Shown one piece after another: positions 2,795 to 8,702 of a DNA stretch of 8,702 nt. How positions within the stretch are numbered: position 1 is the stretch's first letter; the number at the start of each line of letters is the position of its first letter. The notes beneath the pieces were generated by a model, which ran no database searches, was not told where the DNA came from, and saw only the letters and a program-made list of their open reading frames with translations. A program made the position numbers and the translations under genes. This stretch comes from Chloroflexota bacterium (GTDB taxonomy: Bacteria; Chloroflexota; Dormibacteria; Dormibacterales; Dormibacteraceae): NCBI GenBank assembly GCA_005880175.1, contig VBJR01000092.1, forward strand, positions 1 to 8,702, in the 5' to 3' direction.

Positions 2795-3529
2795 CTACCC
2801 GGGGCTGCCGACGGCGCCGGGCACGTCCTCGATGGCGTTCACGACGCGGTCCAGGTCCTCCAGGTTGGGAAGAACGAGATGGGCACCGGCCGCGGCCAGG
2901 CCAACGGCATCGGTCAAGCCCGTGGCCACGGCGATGATCGTCGCGCCTCCGCGGAGCGCGGCGTCGACGTCCTTCGGCGTGTCACCGATGACCACCGTGT
3001 TGGCCTCGGTGAACTCCACGCCGTACTTCTCCCTGGCTCGATCCTTGGCGACCTTCACGAGCTGCCACCGTTCGCTGGCATCCCACCCGTAGCCGCCGAT
3101 GCTGAAGTCGAGGTATTCGCCGAGCCCGAGCGTGGTCAGCTTGGCCTCGGCCAGGTAGCGCACGTTCCCGGTGACGACGGTCTGCGCGATGCCTGGCCGG
3201 CGGGCCAGGACGCGAAGTACCTCGGCCGCGCCGGGAGCCTGACGACCAGCCTGGCGCAGGTGGTCACGGTTCTGGTCCATGGCCCAGACCAGGTACGTGC
3301 TGAAGCGGTCCATGTGCTCCTCGGTGGGTTCGAGGCCGTTCACCTCCAGCATCTCGGCCGTGCTGGCCCGATCAGGGCGGCCGGACATGTCCACCAAGCG
3401 GAGCGGCGCGTTGCCGGTCATTTCCGTGAAGGCGTCGCGGTACAGCTTCTTGTGGAACTCCCAGGCCGTGATGAGAGTGTGGTCGACGTCCCACAGGATC
3501 AGGCGGTGGGGCGCACGGGTGGTAGTCAA
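2795..3529 (-). CDS. HAD-family hydrolase, phosphoglycolate phosphatase-like
   Basis: This 244-aa protein has the haloacid dehalogenase motifs in order. Motif I is LILWDVDHTLI, with nucleophile Asp14, Asp16 and Thr18. Motif II is VVTGN, with Thr119. Motif IV is VVIGDTPKDVDAA, with Asp182 and Asp186 for Mg2+. A basic residue near Arg153 or Lys158 would serve as motif III. The helical cap between motifs I and II (about residues 22-95) places it with the C1-cap phosphatases that include phosphoglycolate phosphatase and beta-phosphoglucomutase. It is probably a soluble small-molecule phosphatase; the substrate cannot be read from sequence. TTG 3529 is the start: it overlaps the regulator stop in TTGA and has GGAG 8 nt upstream. 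The overlap means it is co-translated with the XRE/TPR regulator, so its expression should follow that gene. Confidence 0.9.
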   Translation of the reverse strand: MTTTRAPHRLILWDVDHTLITAWEFHKKLYRDAFTEMTGNAPLRLVDMSGRPDRASTAEMLEVNGLEPTEEHMDRFSTYLVWAMDQNRDHLRQAGRQAPGAAEVLRVLARRPGIAQTVVTGNVRYLAEAKLTTLGLGEYLDFSIGGYGWDASERWQLVKVAKDRAREKYGVEFTEANTVVIGDTPKDVDAALRGGATIIAVATGLTDAVGLAAAGAHLVLPNLEDLDRVVNAIEDVPGAVGSPG

Positions 3530-4920
3530 AGGCTTGCTCCAAGAACCTCTCGAACGCGATCGTTGAACACGCGGACGACCAGCTCGCGCCGGTACGGCCG
3601 CAGGTCATCGCGGAGGGCTGCGATCTCCCGCCTGGCGCGCCACGAGTTCACCCCATCGGCCAGGAGATCGAGGGCCTGGCCGCCAACGTGGCACGCTTCC
3701 TCCACGTCGCGCTGATGAAGACGGGCAACGGCCTGAGCGACCTGGCTGAGGATGCGGCGGCGGCCACGCCCATCGCTGGCGCCGCTCTTGGCAGACTCGC
3801 GGGCCGACCGCTCGGCGGCCGGCCAGTCGCCGAGATCGCGGTAGCACTGGCTCATCTCACCGTCCAGGTAGGCGGTGTCGAGGAAGCGTGCCCAGGCCGG
3901 GCCGGCGGACGGATCGCTCGTGTCCCATGCGACCTGGGCATCGTACAGAGCGGCCCGGCTGCCGGACGTGTTGCCGCGCAGGGCGTGACCGCGGGCCTCC
4001 ATGAGATGGAGACGCATCAGCACGCCAGGGACGTCCGCGGCCTTGGCGCTGACCAGACCGGCACGGGCGAGCTGGATGGCTTCGGCGCCCCGACCGCCTG
4101 CGATGACCAGATGACTCATCGCGGCGAGGACGTTGCCGGTGAAGGCCCTGGTGCCGGCCTCCTCGGCCAGGCGCAGGGCGTGGATGAAGTAGCGCTCCGC
4201 CAGGCCGAGGGCACCGCTGTCGAATGCCGTCAGGCCAGCCAGGTAGAGCAGCTCGGCGGACGCGCTGTAGAGACTGGCGTCGGCCCCGTGGTCCTTCAGC
4301 AGCGGCAGGGCGTACGTGCTGATGTACTGCACGAGCGCCAGCCGCGAATGCCCGCCGCCGTGCCGGGTGTCGAGTTCCTGGAAGGCTCGGAACGTGTCGC
4401 GGATGGGGGCGGCTCCGTCGGCGCGCGTGCGGCCGTGCGGCGTGAGTCGACGGTCCATGTGGTCGATCAGCCAGTCGCGACTCGCGGCGATCAACGCATC
4501 GACCGAGAACGCGACGGAGGCGACCAGGGATGGCCGCTCCAGGTCGGTCTTGCCGAGGAGCAAGGCGTTCTCGAACGCACCGAGCGCGGCGCCGTGGTAG
4601 GTGAGGAGACCGGCATCGGCGGCCAGCCAGGCGGCGCGCCGGCGCTGGGCCTCGGCGGCCGCCATGACGCGCTCGATGGGCAAGCCGAGTGCCAGCGCCA
4701 ACCATCGGCAGTGGTTCAGGCCGGGGGTCACCTCTCCGAGACACCATTTGCAGACGAGGGAATCGTGTGCTCGCGAGTAGCCGGCGTCGGTCGCCGCCGC
4801 CCTGCGCACCATGGCCGCCAGGCGCTCGTACGTGAGACCCTGCGCCTGCCTCTCCGCCTGGAGCAGTTCCGCGAGAGGTAGGCCGCGTGGTCCAGGATCG
4901 GTTGCCGGATCGCCAGCCAT
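3526..4920 (-). CDS. XRE-family regulator with C-terminal TPR-like domain
   Basis: This 464-aa protein starts with a Cro/C1-type helix-turn-helix (about residues 14-82: LPLAELLQAERQAQGLTYER, then DSLVCKWCLGEVTPG and CRWLALALGLPIERV). A long, Ala/Leu-rich helical region follows from about residue 90. It contains TPR-like pairs such as LGLAERYFIHALRLAEEAGT and LGDWPAAERSARESA. Such proteins are common in actinobacteria, where the TPR part usually senses a ligand or partner. The frame is open to a GTG at 5040, but that extension is low-complexity and overlaps an array of TTGCA boxes. ATG 4920 (MAGDPATD) is preferred because it falls just downstream of a good -35/-10 pair, although its Shine-Dalgarno is weak. 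The gene ends in a 4-nt overlap with the HAD phosphatase, forming a two-gene operon. Autoregulation through the TTGCA boxes is inferred. Confidence 0.85.
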   Translation of the reverse strand: MAGDPATDPGPRGLPLAELLQAERQAQGLTYERLAAMVRRAAATDAGYSRAHDSLVCKWCLGEVTPGLNHCRWLALALGLPIERVMAAAEAQRRRAAWLAADAGLLTYHGAALGAFENALLLGKTDLERPSLVASVAFSVDALIAASRDWLIDHMDRRLTPHGRTRADGAAPIRDTFRAFQELDTRHGGGHSRLALVQYISTYALPLLKDHGADASLYSASAELLYLAGLTAFDSGALGLAERYFIHALRLAEEAGTRAFTGNVLAAMSHLVIAGGRGAEAIQLARAGLVSAKAADVPGVLMRLHLMEARGHALRGNTSGSRAALYDAQVAWDTSDPSAGPAWARFLDTAYLDGEMSQCYRDLGDWPAAERSARESAKSGASDGRGRRRILSQVAQAVARLHQRDVEEACHVGGQALDLLADGVNSWRARREIAALRDDLRPYRRELVVRVFNDRVREVLGASL

Positions 4921-4956
4921 GGCCTGCTGGAGATGGTACTCCGGTGTCCATTCGGG

Positions 4957-4985
4957 ATTGCAGGGTCGTTGCAGTGCCGTTGCAA
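4957..4985 (-). promoter_or_regulatory. Candidate promoter of the XRE/HAD operon
   Basis: On the minus strand TTGCAA (4985-4980) and TGCAAT (4962-4957) are separated by exactly 17 bp and each match the sigma-70 consensus at 4/6 positions. Transcription would start near 4950, leaving a leader of about 30 nt before ATG 4920. Both hexamers are part of the TTGCA boxes, so a protein bound there would block polymerase. Confidence 0.45.
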
Positions 4986-4990
4986 GGTGG
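4958..4990 (+). repeat. Three TTGCA boxes with 11-bp period (operator array)
   Basis: TTGCA begins at 4958, 4969 and 4980, giving TTGCAGGGTCG, TTGCAGTGCCG and TTGCAAGGTGG. The second and third are also preceded by CG. An 11-bp step places all three boxes on the same face of the helix, as in cooperative operators. The array covers the candidate promoter of the XRE regulator, which is the obvious candidate to bind it. It also lies about 90-120 bp upstream of the divergent plus-strand operon. Confidence 0.55.
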
Positions 4991-5044
4991 ATCGCGTGAC
5001 GCTGCCCGGTGGCCCCGCAGGTAGTAGCTGCGGTTGGCACCGAA

Positions 5045-5062
5045 GCGGGGGGTCTACCCCGC
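5045..5062. repeat. GC-rich inverted repeat before the plus operon
   Basis: GCGGGG (5045-5050) and CCCCGC (5057-5062) flank GGTCTA. A second small one, CGCAG (5016-5020) with CTGCG (5028-5032), is just upstream. Both would be in the leader or promoter of the gene at 5076. The centre resembles GGGTATCTACCCG at 2789-2801. They could be operators or leader hairpins. No clear -35/-10 pair for the plus operon was found here. Confidence 0.3.
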
Positions 5063-5075
5063 GCGAGGTAGAGAG

Positions 5076-5651
5076 TTGACTGAGCTGGCAGTCGACACGC
5101 TGGTCAAGGTGGTGGAGATCGGGTCCACCGTGCGCTACCGGAGCGCGCGGGCGCCGGAGGAGCGCCGCAGCGCGATCGTGGCGCAGCTCGCCGGCGCCGA
5201 CGTCGAGAGCGAGCACGAGGTGACGATCGTCGCCTCGCCGAGGGACGTCGGGCTGTACCGGCTCACGCCACGCTCGCCGTTGGCGGCGGCGCTGCTCGGG
5301 CACCAGGTGGGCGACGTCGTCGAGGTGGTAGGGGAGCAGGTCAGGGCGGCGTTCGTGGTGACGGGCATCAGCACGCCGCCGGCGGTCCCGGCCGAGCCAG
5401 CGGGCAGCGGTGGCGACGGGGTCGTGCGCGTGGGCTCGCTGGTGCGGGTGCGCGACGGCGAGCTGGAGGAGTGGTGGCGCATCGTCCCCTCGCACGAGGC
5501 GGACGCGATGCGGCGCTGCATCTCCGAGGAGACTCCGTTCGCCCGGGCGCTGCTCGGCCACCAGGTGGGCGACGAGGTTCGCACGCAGGCGCCCGGCGGG
5601 CGCTGGACGGTGACCATCCTGGGCGTCGACTCCGAGGGCGTGTGGGGGTGA
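5076..5651 (+). CDS. Tandem GreA/GreB C-terminal-domain protein
   Basis: This 191-aa protein is two copies of the FKBP-like C-terminal domain of GreA/GreB transcript-cleavage factors. Copy 1 (about residues 13-98) has VEIGSTVRYRS and then LTPRSPLAAALLGHQVGDVV. Copy 2 (about 117-184) has RVGSLVRVRDGE, IVPSHEADAM, then ISEETPFARALLGHQVGDEV and APGGRWTVTILGV, very close to canonical GreA. The string ALLGHQVGD is identical in both. The N-terminal coiled coil that carries the catalytic acidic tip in GreA is absent. The protein could therefore dock on RNA polymerase but should not stimulate RNA cleavage. TTG 5076 is chosen because GAGG stands 7 nt upstream; TTG 5034 in the same frame has no such signal. 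It opens the plus-strand operon and overlaps the next gene by 4 nt (GTGA). Confidence 0.8.
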   Translation: MTELAVDTLVKVVEIGSTVRYRSARAPEERRSAIVAQLAGADVESEHEVTIVASPRDVGLYRLTPRSPLAAALLGHQVGDVVEVVGEQVRAAFVVTGISTPPAVPAEPAGSGGDGVVRVGSLVRVRDGELEEWWRIVPSHEADAMRRCISEETPFARALLGHQVGDEVRTQAPGGRWTVTILGVDSEGVWG

Positions 5652-6055
5652 TCGGCCCGGAGGTGCGACTGGACGAACAAGAGGGGGACGTGGCGACGGC
5701 CATCAAGGATGGCCGCGCCATGGGCGTGGAGGTAGCCCCCCGCCGGCGGGGCGTGGGACCGCGCTGGGGCGTGGTGAACTGCCCGGACGGGCCGCACCGA
5801 GTCGACCTGGGCGTTGTGCGCCAGGTCATGACGCGGCTGGTCGTGACCGGCGCGCTCGCGTACGACGTCAAGACGACCCTGGCCAAGAAGGCGGGCGTCA
5901 GCAGGTCGACGCTGTCGCGGATGATGGGCGGTCGGCCGACCGGGCTGAGGACGGTGTTGGCGGTGCTGCGCGTGCTCCAACTCCCGACCGAGGACGTCGT
6001 CTCGGCGGACCCGATGCTCGACGCGCTGACGGCGGCGGAGGACAACGTCGAGTGA
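5648..6055 (+). CDS. Small Cro/C1-like HTH protein
   Basis: This is a 135-aa protein. Its C-terminal half (residues about 75-112) has KTTLAKKAGVSRSTLSRMMG followed by GLRTVLAVLRVLQL, a clear helix-turn-helix of the XRE/Cro type with its dimer helix. The N-terminal 60 residues (PEVRLDEQEGDVATAIKDGR and so on) match nothing I know. GTG 5648 overlaps the stop of the Gre-like gene in GTGA and has GAGGG about 8 nt upstream, so the pair is probably translationally coupled. It is likely a DNA-binding regulator acting with or on the operon. A tRNA gene begins 23 bp after its stop, which makes a transcript carrying both mRNA and tRNA likely. Confidence 0.75.
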   Translation: MIGPEVRLDEQEGDVATAIKDGRAMGVEVAPRRRGVGPRWGVVNCPDGPHRVDLGVVRQVMTRLVVTGALAYDVKTTLAKKAGVSRSTLSRMMGGRPTGLRTVLAVLRVLQLPTEDVVSADPMLDALTAAEDNVE

Positions 6056-6078
6056 TCCGGTTGACCATGAAGGCTGAT

Positions 6079-6160
6079 GCCCGTCTGGCGGAACTGGCAG
6101 ACGCGGCGCTCTTAAAAAGCGCTCCCGAGGTGGGTCCGGGTTCGAGTCCCGGGGCGGGCA
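6079..6160 (+). tRNA. tRNA-Leu, anticodon UAA
   Basis: A complete cloverleaf of 82 nt can be folded. The acceptor is GCCCGTC (6079-6085) with GGCGGGC (6153-6159) and discriminator A6160. The D arm is GCG/CGC around GAACTGGCAGA. The anticodon stem is GCGCT/AGCGC around CTTAAAA, with anticodon TAA at 6113-6115. A long variable arm (CCC/GGG, 6124-6134) marks a class II leucine tRNA. The T arm is CCGGG/CCCGG around TTCGAGT. CCA is not encoded. It reads UUA, the rarest leucine codon in high-GC genomes; in Streptomyces the tRNA with this anticodon (bldA) controls development. It lies between two protein genes of one operon and probably relies on RNase P and RNase Z processing. Whether it is the main chromosomal copy or an extra mobile copy cannot be told here. 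Confidence 0.95.
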
Positions 6161-6239
6161 CATCTCCCACTCCTTGCGTGCGGGACGGGCGGCAGCTCGG
6201 CGACTCGAAGTCGGCAGAGATGCCCGTGGTGGTGCGCTG

Positions 6240-6599
6240 ATGGCCAGCCCGTACGTCCCGGACGACGTGGCAGAGAAGGAGCGACGGCCGGGCGAGCGAA
6301 TCGTCAGGACCGTCACCTACTCGGCGCATGCCTACGAGCTGCTGGCGGCGCTGGCCACCGCGACGCACGTGACGATGAGCGATGTCGTGCGGGAGGCCCT
6401 GAGCGTCTACTGGTGGCTGGCGCGGGAGCACGGCCAGGGGAGTCGATTCATGGTGCTGCGGGACAGGGAGTGGCTCACCGATCTGGTGATCCCGAGCCTG
6501 GAAGGCATGGGGCCTCTGCCCCCGATCGGGAAGGGCCAGGACGAGCGGGATCCGGCAGAAAGCCCCCAGACCCAGGGACCGCTGGTGGCCGGTTCGTGA
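6240..6599 (+). CDS. Ribbon-helix-helix protein
   Basis: This is a 119-aa protein. Residues about 20-60 (RIVRTVTYSAHAYELLAALA, then THVTMSDVVREALSVYWWL) fit the strand-helix-helix pattern of CopG/Arc-type DNA-binding proteins, including the conserved MSDVVREAL second helix. The C-terminal half (residues 65-119) is unrecognised and ends in a disordered-looking Gln/Pro/Ser tail. The upstream-open frame runs to 6174, but ATG 6240 is chosen because the stretch before it is low-complexity and abuts the tRNA. The Shine-Dalgarno is poor, so the start is uncertain. The stop overlaps the next gene by GTGA. The protein could be an antitoxin-like repressor, but no toxin family is visible beside it. Confidence 0.7.
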   Translation: MASPYVPDDVAEKERRPGERIVRTVTYSAHAYELLAALATATHVTMSDVVREALSVYWWLAREHGQGSRFMVLRDREWLTDLVIPSLEGMGPLPPIGKGQDERDPAESPQTQGPLVAGS

Positions 6600-6751
6600 T
6601 CGACTCAGGTCGACGGGATGGGCCGCTGCGTTGGCGGCGGCCAGTATGGAACCCGGCGCCGACGTCGCTGAGCCTGGCTGCGGCCAGGCTGGCGGCCGCC
6701 GCGACGGCCGTCGTCGTTCTCGTCGTCTTGGTCGGTGGACACGGCGCATGA
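6596..6751 (+). CDS. 51-aa single-TM peptide
   Basis: The small frame starts at GTG 6596, inside the stop of the RHH gene (GTGA), and ends at a TGA overlapping the next ATG (ATGA). The start is basic (SGRRDGPLRWRRPVW), and residues about 25-47 (LSLAAARLAAAATAVVVLVV) make a strong membrane helix, so an N-in single-pass topology is likely. The 4-nt overlap at both ends is the main reason to accept it as a gene. I do not recognise a family. It resembles the 61-aa peptide at 1136-1321 in size, single TM and place next to a small DNA-binding protein, without clear sequence similarity. Confidence 0.55.
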   Translation: MIDSGRRDGPLRWRRPVWNPAPTSLSLAAARLAAAATAVVVLVVLVGGHGA

Positions 6752-7152
6752 ACACGCTGGGCCGGTTCAACGCAGCATTCGTCGAGGCGTGCCGTGTGGC
6801 GCGTCTCCGGCGGTGGCCGGAGCGGCTGGGACAGGACGCGCTCCGGCTGGAGCGCGGCGACTTCTACGGCTGGCGGGATACAGTGCCGCCGGCACCGGGA
6901 ACGGTGCGCGTCACCCTGATCGGCGAACCGCGCCCGGTCGTGATCGCGCACGACCGCGTGTGGTGGGTGCCGCAGCTCGACCAGTTGCTGGAGCGCCTGG
7001 AGGGGGCGATCAGCCGGCGCACGTCGGGATCGCCAGCGCACGTGCGCGAACTCATCGCCAGGATGCTCGCCGAGCGCCTGCGGGCCACGGATCGGTCGTG
7101 GGAGGAGGTCGCGCTGGAGCTGATGATCGAGCAGGAGACGGCCGGGCGGTGA
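6748..7152 (+). CDS. Hypothetical protein, 134 aa
   Basis: I do not recognise this family. The protein has a basic N-terminal helical part (FNAAFVEACRVARLRRWPER), a short beta-rich centre (GTVRVTLIGEPRPVVIAHDR followed by VWWVP) and an acidic-basic C-terminal helical part (VRELIARMLAERLRATDRSW). No signal peptide or TM segment is visible. ATG 6748 is chosen because it overlaps the TM-peptide stop (ATGA); the frame is open upstream to 6631, but that extension is antisense-like Arg/Gly-rich sequence. The stop overlaps the next gene in GTGA. The strong third-position G/C bias supports coding. Confidence 0.65.
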   Translation: MNTLGRFNAAFVEACRVARLRRWPERLGQDALRLERGDFYGWRDTVPPAPGTVRVTLIGEPRPVVIAHDRVWWVPQLDQLLERLEGAISRRTSGSPAHVRELIARMLAERLRATDRSWEEVALELMIEQETAGR

Positions 7153-7448
7153 GCGCGCTGAGCGTGGAGGCGGCGCGCACAGCGCGGGGGCGAGTGACGA
7201 TCGGCCTCACGGTGGCGTCCTCAATGGTGGCCAACGTCGTGGAGCGGCTGTGCGACCACGAGCTGAGTGAGGCCGATCGGGAGCGCAGCACAGATCAGCT
7301 GCACGGAGCCATGGCGGACGTGCGCCAGGCGCTGGCGGAGCTGGGCGAGTTGGTCGGGGCCGGTGAGCACGGCGGCGAGGGCGTCGTCGTTCGCGTCTCG
7401 CCCGCGCGGTTCCGCCGCAACGGGTGGAGCCGCCGCCTGTGGGGGTAG
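7149..7448 (+). CDS. Small helical hypothetical protein, 99 aa
   Basis: This frame starts at GTG 7149, overlapping the previous stop (GTGA), and ends at TAG 7446-7448. It is largely helical: RGRVTIGLTVASSMVANVVE, then ELSEADRERSTDQLHGAMAD and VRQALAELGELVG, a possible short coiled coil. It ends in a basic tail (RVSPARFRRNGWSRRLWG). No family is recognised. The long open frame upstream to 6735 is a shadow of the previous gene. Third-position bias and the chained start support it. Confidence 0.55.
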   Translation: MSALSVEAARTARGRVTIGLTVASSMVANVVERLCDHELSEADRERSTDQLHGAMADVRQALAELGELVGAGEHGGEGVVVRVSPARFRRNGWSRRLWG

Positions 7449-7492
7449 CGAGGGGTGAGCTGGCGTCGGGGCAACCCGGCCCCGTTGGGCCG

Positions 7493-7894
7493 ATGGTGCG
7501 AGTGGACCTGAAGGTAGCGGCCATCGTCCTCGGTCAGTGGGCGGGGCTGGCCGACGTGGCGCCGGCGGACGTGCGCGAGTTGGTCCGGCGCGGTTTGCTG
7601 GCGGGCTTCGCCGATCCGAGGTGGCCGCTGGTCGAGGTGGCCGCGCCCGAAACGCGATGGAAGATACTGCCGGCAGCGGCCCTGGTTGAGGAGCTGCGCC
7701 GGGTCGGAGACCAACGCCGGGCATGGCGGGCCGCTTCGTGCGATCGGTGGGAGGCGGCCGAGGAGCTGGGCCTGAGCTTGCAGGACTTTGACAGGCTCGC
7801 CGCCCGGGCTGGCGTCGAGCCGGGCCGGTTCGGCCGCTACGCCCGATCAGACGTGGAGCGTCTGCGCCGGGCACGGCTGCAAGCGACGGGGTGA
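7493..7894 (+). CDS. MerR/excisionase-like HTH protein
   Basis: This is a 133-aa protein from ATG 7493. Residues about 85-125 (WEAAEELGLSLQDFDRLAAR, then FGRYARSDVERLRR) look like the winged helix-turn-helix shared by MerR proteins and excisionases, in which the wing reads roughly 'GRFGRYARSDVERL'. An earlier part (ADVAPADVRELVRRGLLAGF with PRWPLVEV) resembles a second, degenerate copy. The start is uncertain: GTG 7439 in frame has GGTGGAG 9 nt upstream and would overlap the previous gene by 10 nt, giving 151 aa. If the integrase belongs to the same element this could be its directionality factor, but the two genes are 5 kb apart, so this is only a guess. The next gene overlaps it by GTGA. 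Confidence 0.6.
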   Translation: MVRVDLKVAAIVLGQWAGLADVAPADVRELVRRGLLAGFADPRWPLVEVAAPETRWKILPAAALVEELRRVGDQRRAWRAASCDRWEAAEELGLSLQDFDRLAARAGVEPGRFGRYARSDVERLRRARLQATG

Positions 7895-8107
7895 GGTTCA
7901 GCGCCGCCCAGACGCGCGGCCTGGCTGTCACGTACGCGCCGGTAGCGGTCGAGCGCTTCGGCACGGCGCTCTGGCAGCCTGCTGGTAGCCGCCGGCCTGC
8001 GCGACCACCTCGCCGAGCTGGTCGGCCTGCTCGATCGCCTCGCCCCCCGCCCCGCCGGTCGTTGGCGTCCACCCACGTGGTGTATGACGAGATCCCCGTC
8101 GTCGTAG
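7891..8107 (+). pseudogene. Last operon gene, small helical protein with frame break
   Basis: GTG 7891 overlaps the previous stop (GTGA) and reads MRFSAAQTRGLAVTYAPVAV followed by ERFGTALWQ. After about 7970-7980 this frame becomes Arg/Pro-rich. The neighbouring frame takes over with LLVAAGLRDHLAELVGLLDR, a good amphipathic helix, and stops at TAG 8105-8107, inside the big palindrome. A single-base indel would join the two into roughly 70 aa. No family is recognised. The break could be a sequencing error or real decay. Confidence 0.4.
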
Positions 8108-8139
8108 TGGAGGCCGCCCGGGCGGCCTCCACTACGACG
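8100..8139. terminator. 40-bp perfect palindrome, likely bidirectional terminator
   Basis: CGTCGTAGTGGAGGCCGCCC (8100-8119) is followed immediately by its exact reverse complement (8120-8139). In RNA this gives a very stable stem closed by about 4 nt. It lies exactly where the plus-strand operon (stop at 8105-8107) meets the convergent minus-strand TPR gene, the expected site for a shared terminator. There is no U-tract on either side. Alternatives are a binding site for a large dimer, a recombination site, or a fold-back assembly artefact. Confidence 0.55.
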
Positions 8140-8702
8140 GCCGCTGGCTGGCGGCGCAGGTCGCCCATGCTCAGCATGGTCCTTGCCTGCGGTGACGCCG
8201 GCGCGCTCGAAGTGGTCGAGGGCGGCCAGGATCATCTCCTCGGCCCGGTCGAGCTGGCCGGCGCGCAGGAGGGCGTGACCGTAGTCGTTCTCGACGCGGG
8301 GCAGGGTGACGCTGACGCTGCCACGGACGTCGCAGTCGGCGCGGGAGAAGCTGACGGCGCGGTTGAAGTAGTCGAGGGCCTCGCGGACGTCGCCGAGACG
8401 GAGACAGCCCGACGCCAAGCCGTGGTAGATGTTGGCCAGTCTGGCCAAGGTGAGGATGCCGTCCGCGCCGAGAGGGCCGCGCGATAGGTCTGGAGCGCGT
8501 CAGCGACCTCCCGCCGCTGGAGATGGCAGGAGGCGATGTGGCTCCAGCATCAGCGACTCGATCGCGGGCTCGCGATCGATGAGGAGCCGCTAGCGCGCGA
8601 GGGCCTGGCGGGCGACGTCCCGGGCCTCGGGGCTTGCAGGTAGTAGAGCGCCACCCCTCCCAATCCAGGGCCTCGGCGGCCAGCCAGGGTTCGCGCACCC
8701 GC
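8140..8702 (-). pseudogene. TPR-repeat protein, several frame breaks, partial at window edge
   Basis: Read from 8702, the minus strand encodes pieces of one protein in changing frames: RVREPWLAAEALDWEG; VALYYLQA; PEARDVARQALAR; a TAG at 8592-8590; RLLIDREPAIESLMLE; SHIASCHLQRREVADALQTY; then ARLANIYHGLASGCLRLGDV and VREALDYFNRAVSFSRADCD. The last parts carry the alternating small/large helix pattern of TPR repeats (for example LRAGQLDRAEEMILAALDHF). Breaks fall near 8654-8657 (CCCC), 8629-8632 (GGGG), 8537-8543 and 8461-8475, with another likely near 8175-8190, where a frame with MLSMGDLRRQPA takes over. The first two could each be repaired by one base in a homopolymer. It may be the C-terminal sensor part of another HTH/TPR regulator, but the N-terminus is outside the window. 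Confidence 0.6.

Follow-up and report, generated by a model that had tools for sequence, protein, structure and literature searches.

A tandem GreA C-terminal-domain protein without a coiled coil, encoded close to a tRNA-Leu(UAA) embedded in an open frame

What would a protein do that carries the RNA polymerase-docking C-terminal domain of GreA and GreB twice and their coiled coil not at all? This question is raised by a gene in an 8,702-nucleotide stretch of DNA from a Chloroflexota bacterium of the Dormibacteraceae (assembly GCA_005880175.1, contig VBJR01000092.1), referred to in full as the window. An earlier note on this DNA had proposed two GreA C-terminal (GreA-C) domains in tandem, without the coiled coil and with the second half nearer to canonical GreA, and both claims were borne out. 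The gene is intact and encodes a 191-amino-acid (aa) protein in which the GreA/GreB C-terminal domain (GreA_GreB) is present in two copies, domain 2 being the closer to GreA-C.

5076..5651, plus strand: tandem GreA/GreB C-terminal-domain protein, 191 aa, TTG start, GAGG 5′ of the start
5103..5384 (limits approximate), plus strand: domain 1, a diverged GreA-C domain with docking motif LTPRSPLAAALLG
5397..5648 (limits approximate), plus strand: domain 2, nearer to GreA-C, with EWWRIV and ISEETPFARALLG

The N-terminal coiled coil with its acidic tip (PF03449) gave no match in the 191-aa protein, and no long helix was present in the predicted structure. A hidden N-terminal coiled coil encoded upstream of 5076 was excluded because of an in-frame stop at 5025. 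Scanning the protein against the family library at E up to 1 returned PF01272 only. Scores of full-length Gre families were not reached (TIGR01462, 72 against a cut-off of 139 bits; TIGR01461, 39.1 against 171.05), nor was that of the Rnk model NF004396 (40.3 against 109 bits), and none of the 12 NCBIfam models listed was matched at its cut-off. A viral structure library yielded zero matches at E 0.001 or better. The segment 5034-5075, directly ahead of the TTG start, resembles, when read in frame (RGVY), the N-terminal extension of a relative (P0011); a promoter or operator may be conserved in this segment.

The best reading, held tentatively and at somewhat less than an even chance, is that the gene makes a docking-only antagonist at the Gre site. 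The protein would bind, through one GreA-C domain or both, to the β′ rim helices where the secondary channel of RNA polymerase opens and, lacking the coiled coil, would not stimulate transcript cleavage. The docked protein would keep GreA-type factors off the polymerase, and this exclusion would shift transcription in favour of the protein's own operon. The protein would be made from a closely packed operon that also holds a helix-turn-helix (HTH) regulator and a tRNA-Leu(UAA) embedded in an open frame. This reading is preferred because the Ser/Thr-Pro-Leu motif, important for polymerase binding in Mycobacterium tuberculosis Gre (MtbGre), is mostly retained in the two domains. A Gre-site binder reduced to its docking domain would separate docking effects from coiled-coil effects, otherwise approached with GreA mutants.

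Motif conservation was assessed in a family assembled as follows. Searching with the window protein gave 59 proteins (E ≤ 0.01), among them P0001, which is the window protein itself. A profile of divergent members scored 7999 candidates and gave at least 314 proteins with E ≤ 1e-8, 120 of them among the matches listed. In addition to the window protein, 161 proteins were examined; the whole set comprised 7 HTH relatives without GreA-C, 115 proteins with one GreA-C domain and 40 with two. The latter were reduced to 37 distinct tandem proteins, the window's included, by removing the window duplicate P0001 and also P0023 and P0082, in which domain 1 is truncated; the end of domain 2 is missing from P0018 and P0076. 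A single GreA-C domain occurs in 71 proteins of at most 135 aa, some of them cut by contig ends. The 41 domains termed canonical-type came from single-domain proteins longer than 135 aa with an N-terminal part; nine of these proteins (P0028, P0047, P0152, P0154, P0155, P0157, P0158, P0160 and P0161) are without PF03449 in precomputed annotation.

A tree of 189 domains placed domain 1 in one clade together with 18 single-domain sequences (0.989), domain 2 in another together with 12 (0.842), and the canonical-type domains in a clade of 41 (0.88), with 44 further single-domain sequences outside all three. As each of the three types forms one clade, the tandem arrangement is old.

The motif serine position (153) is occupied in domain 1 by S or T in 24/37 copies (M in 9, A in 4), in domain 2 by S or T in 31/37, and in canonical-type domains by S in 35/41 and A in 6/41. 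The proline that follows is kept in 32/37, 36/37 and 40/41, respectively. The subsequent A-L-L-G is nearly invariant in domains 1 and 2; at its second L, canonical-type domains have L, M or I. Polymerase binding of MtbGre was abolished by S127E (PMC3132773), and S127 is deduced, from a primer given in that paper, to be the serine ahead of the motif proline. The comparison speaks for docking through domain 2 in most of the tandem proteins and through domain 1 in many of them. The earlier note's docking-only double domain is in line with a motif mostly kept in both halves; its proposed roles as decoy or competitor, or as bivalent adaptor, are ones that we, too, can only infer.

Several points weigh against docking-only antagonism. 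Position 153 is Met or Ala in 13/37 domain 1 copies, which leaves tandem proteins whose domain 1 may not dock, and the relative placement of the two domains was not resolved in the predicted structure (pTM 0.45). According to PMC7527559, both GreA domains seem to be needed for specific polymerase binding, overexpression of the isolated C-domain of E. coli GreA was not lethal, and E. coli GreA S124L lost most antipause activity with polymerase binding kept; by our own alignment (numbering of 1grj), S124 is the motif serine. Because of these published results, the probability given to docking-only antagonism was lowered slightly.

Known Gre-site proteins offer partial parallels. With GreA/GreB, the tandem protein shares the C-terminal FKBP-like docking domain and an S/T-P-L motif followed by A-L-L-G, but it has no N-terminal coiled coil or acidic tip and its domain is doubled. 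Rnk also contains the GreA-C domain and is, when bound to polymerase, a competitor of Gre factors that does not extend to the active site (PMC4598747); it consists, however, of a short coiled coil plus one GreA-C domain, against two domains and no long helix here. Gfh1 and Rv3788 occupy the Gre site, displacing Gre factors without stimulating cleavage (same source); the tandem protein, by its presumed docking, would follow this theme, whereas Gfh1 and Rv3788 have retained a coiled coil, the part of Gfh1 that displaces the trigger loop. What we infer is the Gre-site binder theme in a coil-less, doubled form, with an unexpected tRNA partner. Among the papers listed in literature searches for coil-less or tandem Gre proteins, or for a link between Gre and tRNA, none was on a tandem GreA-C protein, which does not establish absence from print; the searches did bring up the TPR-GreA/B-C-PIN conflict proteins.

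The divergence of domain 1 is the starting point of a different explanation, which we regard as unlikely: a bivalent adaptor with domain 2 on RNA polymerase and domain 1 on another partner, perhaps the HTH protein, so that polymerase would be recruited to or held at an operator. Just ahead of the docking motif, domain 1 carries a signature of G (37/37), L (34/37), R (36/37) and L (37/37), corresponding to alignment positions 145, 146, 148 and 149 of domain 2, at which both domain 2 and the canonical-type domains differ from it; the GreA-C2 gene and the HTH gene, moreover, overlap by four bases. Yet the docking motif is mostly kept in domain 1, and the 18 single-domain sequences in its clade indicate that domain 1 also occurs without domain 2, with the proviso that some may be cut by contig ends.

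Reuse of the GreA-C fold in an FKBP-like chaperone or protein-binding module that plays no part at RNA polymerase would fit the FKBP-type matches obtained for domain 1, the SlyD/trigger-factor matches obtained for domain 2 and the chaperone activity reported for E. coli GreA (PMC3521015), and is judged rather improbable. A conflict or takeover system, in which the docking protein and a supplied tRNA-Leu would jointly counter host defence or serve a mobile element, is quite unlikely: GreA-C domains outside a Gre factor are known from predicted TPR-GreA/B-C-PIN conflict proteins (PMC8195603), the small genes are closely packed and tyrosine-recombinase pieces lie nearby, but the tandem protein has no TPR, PIN or effector domain, the window proteins scanned against Pfam, PHROGs or NCBIfam (all except the 62-aa and 51-aa frames) included no nuclease or effector, and zero tandem relatives were found in 50,697 phage records, 72,556 plasmid records and IMG/VR.

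At the sensitivity used, these and the genome searches gave the following. Among the phage records, seven partial matches to domain 2 were obtained with the window protein and none with P0021 as query; among the plasmid records, the window protein had 11 matches, none covering 80% of it. The single-domain protein P0097 matched 25 plasmid records, annotated greA or without annotation. IMG/VR contained no match to any of three alignments or to the HTH protein. A scan of one genome per species (84,980 species, GTDB) with two peptide patterns revealed no tandem relative; it gave 14 loci with matches all within query residues 82-187, 0/14 spanning both domains. Source tags of large sequence collections suggest, without proving it, that the tandem family comes mainly from metagenomes. 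P0011, P0014 and P0065 all report a longest contig of 7131 bases, so perhaps two GreA-C2 genes and an HTH gene share one contig; P0089 and P0123 (21955), and P0007 and P0063 (4630), likewise report the same longest contig.

The tRNA lies inside a 62-aa frame of the closely packed operon.

6079..6161, plus strand: tRNA-Leu, anticodon UAA, cloverleaf (ARAGORN; RF00005, 50 bits)

An Rfam scan of the whole window (E up to 1) listed nothing; scanning 161 bases gave the tRNA at 50 bits, and the latter result was trusted alongside ARAGORN. Two of the three frames through the tRNA are open, so an open frame across it is not rare in itself. No client for the tRNA is visible in the window, since the TTA codon is absent from the 12 frames counted, some of them fragments. 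DNA 5050-8700 matched four plasmid records, in the tRNA region only, two of which are ordinary tRNA clusters at the match (Leu anticodons caa and cag). Dense tRNA clusters occur on large Curtobacterium and Arthrobacter plasmids (L019, L020), L019 having a tmRNA too.

The peptide read from the window tRNA recurs in the family. In 7/36 tandem relatives (P0020, P0021, P0022, P0067, P0068, P0069 and P0071) it links the two domains, in the same frame. It also follows domain 1 in P0146, P0156 and P0135, of which P0146 departs from the family early in domain 2, and precedes a GreA-C domain in P0092, P0141 and P0149; P0025 has its end. By hidden Markov model (HMM), the peptide was found in 14/161 proteins, ten in the HMM seed and four outside it. 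For the 11 complete peptides, it was asked whether some choice of codons allows the window tRNA's acceptor, D, anticodon and T stems to pair (20 pairs). All 20 pairs form in 9/11, and P0069 and P0149 each miss one; shifting the partners by 1 or 2 bases, as a control, costs 3 to 9 pairs. Random replacements at these same positions did as well in the following numbers out of 500: P0149 0, P0071 1, P0141 1, P0156 13, P0069 22, P0146 31, P0020 39, P0068 73, P0067 77, P0021 137 and P0022 143; the last few add little alone. The anticodon of the relatives is fixed by the peptide only to UAA or UGA. Their tRNA form is read from protein sequences, and some relatives may be gene-caller fusions of neighbouring genes.

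Of 18 linkers or leaders tested by shuffling, only P0076 (0/2000), P0082 (1/2000) and, weakly, P0077 (18/2000) stood out. In P0076 and P0082 a tRNA peptide, shortened or decayed, is still present in frame, so it looks as if the protein frame was kept while the tRNA decayed. The peptide HMM was not significant for P0076 (E 0.43), P0070 (0.73), P0077 (3.1) or P0082. Candidate tRNA remnants in P0070, P0073 and P0123 were unsupported, their scores being reached by 530, 601 and 516 of 2000 shuffles, respectively. The seven bearers of a tRNA linker fall in one clade (0.928), mixed with forms without the tRNA, so the tRNA was lost or gained more than once.

One RNA stretch could therein serve both as a working tRNA-Leu(UAA) and as linker coding sequence, a proposal that we consider possible but doubtful. 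With the tRNA between two domains in frame, the RNA of some relatives would either be read through by ribosomes or be cleaved in the course of tRNA processing, each transcript giving the fused protein or the tRNA; the window would represent another form, with the tRNA in the next-but-one overlapping frame. If functional, such a tRNA would be a natural case of one bacterial RNA choosing between translation and tRNA maturation, and would tie the supply of a UUA-reading leucine tRNA to a polymerase factor. The bldA tRNA of Streptomyces, which acts as a developmental switch, is of the same isotype.

The frames from 5076 to 7894 overlap successively by 4, 4, 1, 4, 4, 4 and 25 nucleotides (nt). Downstream of the tandem gene they are:

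5648..6055, plus strand: Cro/C1-type HTH protein, start overlapping the GreA-C stop by 4 nt
6052..6240, plus strand: 62-aa open frame reading through the tRNA, overlapping the HTH stop by 4 nt and the chosen ribbon-helix-helix (RHH) start by 1 nt
6240..6599, plus strand: possible RHH protein, family matches below cut-off, start chosen inside a longer frame (6174-6599)
6596..6751, plus strand: 51-aa frame with a hydrophobic stretch, 4-nt overlap with both neighbours, start chosen inside a longer frame
6748..7152, plus strand: 134-aa protein, no NCBIfam or PHROGs match, one Pfam match below cut-off in a longer frame (6631-7152)
7149..7448, plus strand: 99-aa protein, no NCBIfam match
7424..7894, plus strand: possible HTH_17 protein, under the Pfam cut-off

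The HTH protein passes its Pfam cut-off (27.2 against 27 bits), and its start is supported because 5/7 relatives (P0060-P0063 and P0065) begin at the corresponding residue. As a sign of an operon the overlaps are only suggestive, because the RHH, 51-aa, 134-aa and 99-aa starts were chosen inside longer frames. The position of the gene next to an HTH gene was as the earlier note had described; of its "operon of small DNA-binding proteins", one HTH protein at the Pfam cut-off stood, but the RHH and HTH_17 matches were below cut-off. In a simple scan of 4900-8000, promoter-like sites were absent and a single terminator-like site turned up on the minus strand, no more than in shuffled sequence.

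The remaining features lie on the minus strand.

1618-2001 (by Pfam) and 2196-2483 (N-terminal piece, by eye from frames), minus strand: tyrosine recombinase, two pieces in different frames
3526-5040, minus strand: NsdA-family TPR-like regulator, divergent from the GreA-C operon (NF053720, 273.6 against 75 bits)
7837-8448, minus strand: second frame with a repeat-protein match

The integrase said to stand beside the gene exists in pieces, but on the opposite strand, 2.6 kb away, in different frames and with two other genes between; a mobile-element reading of the region is plausible and unproven. The recombinase at 1618-2483 is either a decayed gene or the product of a sequencing error. The NsdA-family regulator matches 103 plasmid and 9 phage records, all from actinobacteria or their phages by name, a pattern that would make an actinobacterial host likely; the GC content of the window is 70%.
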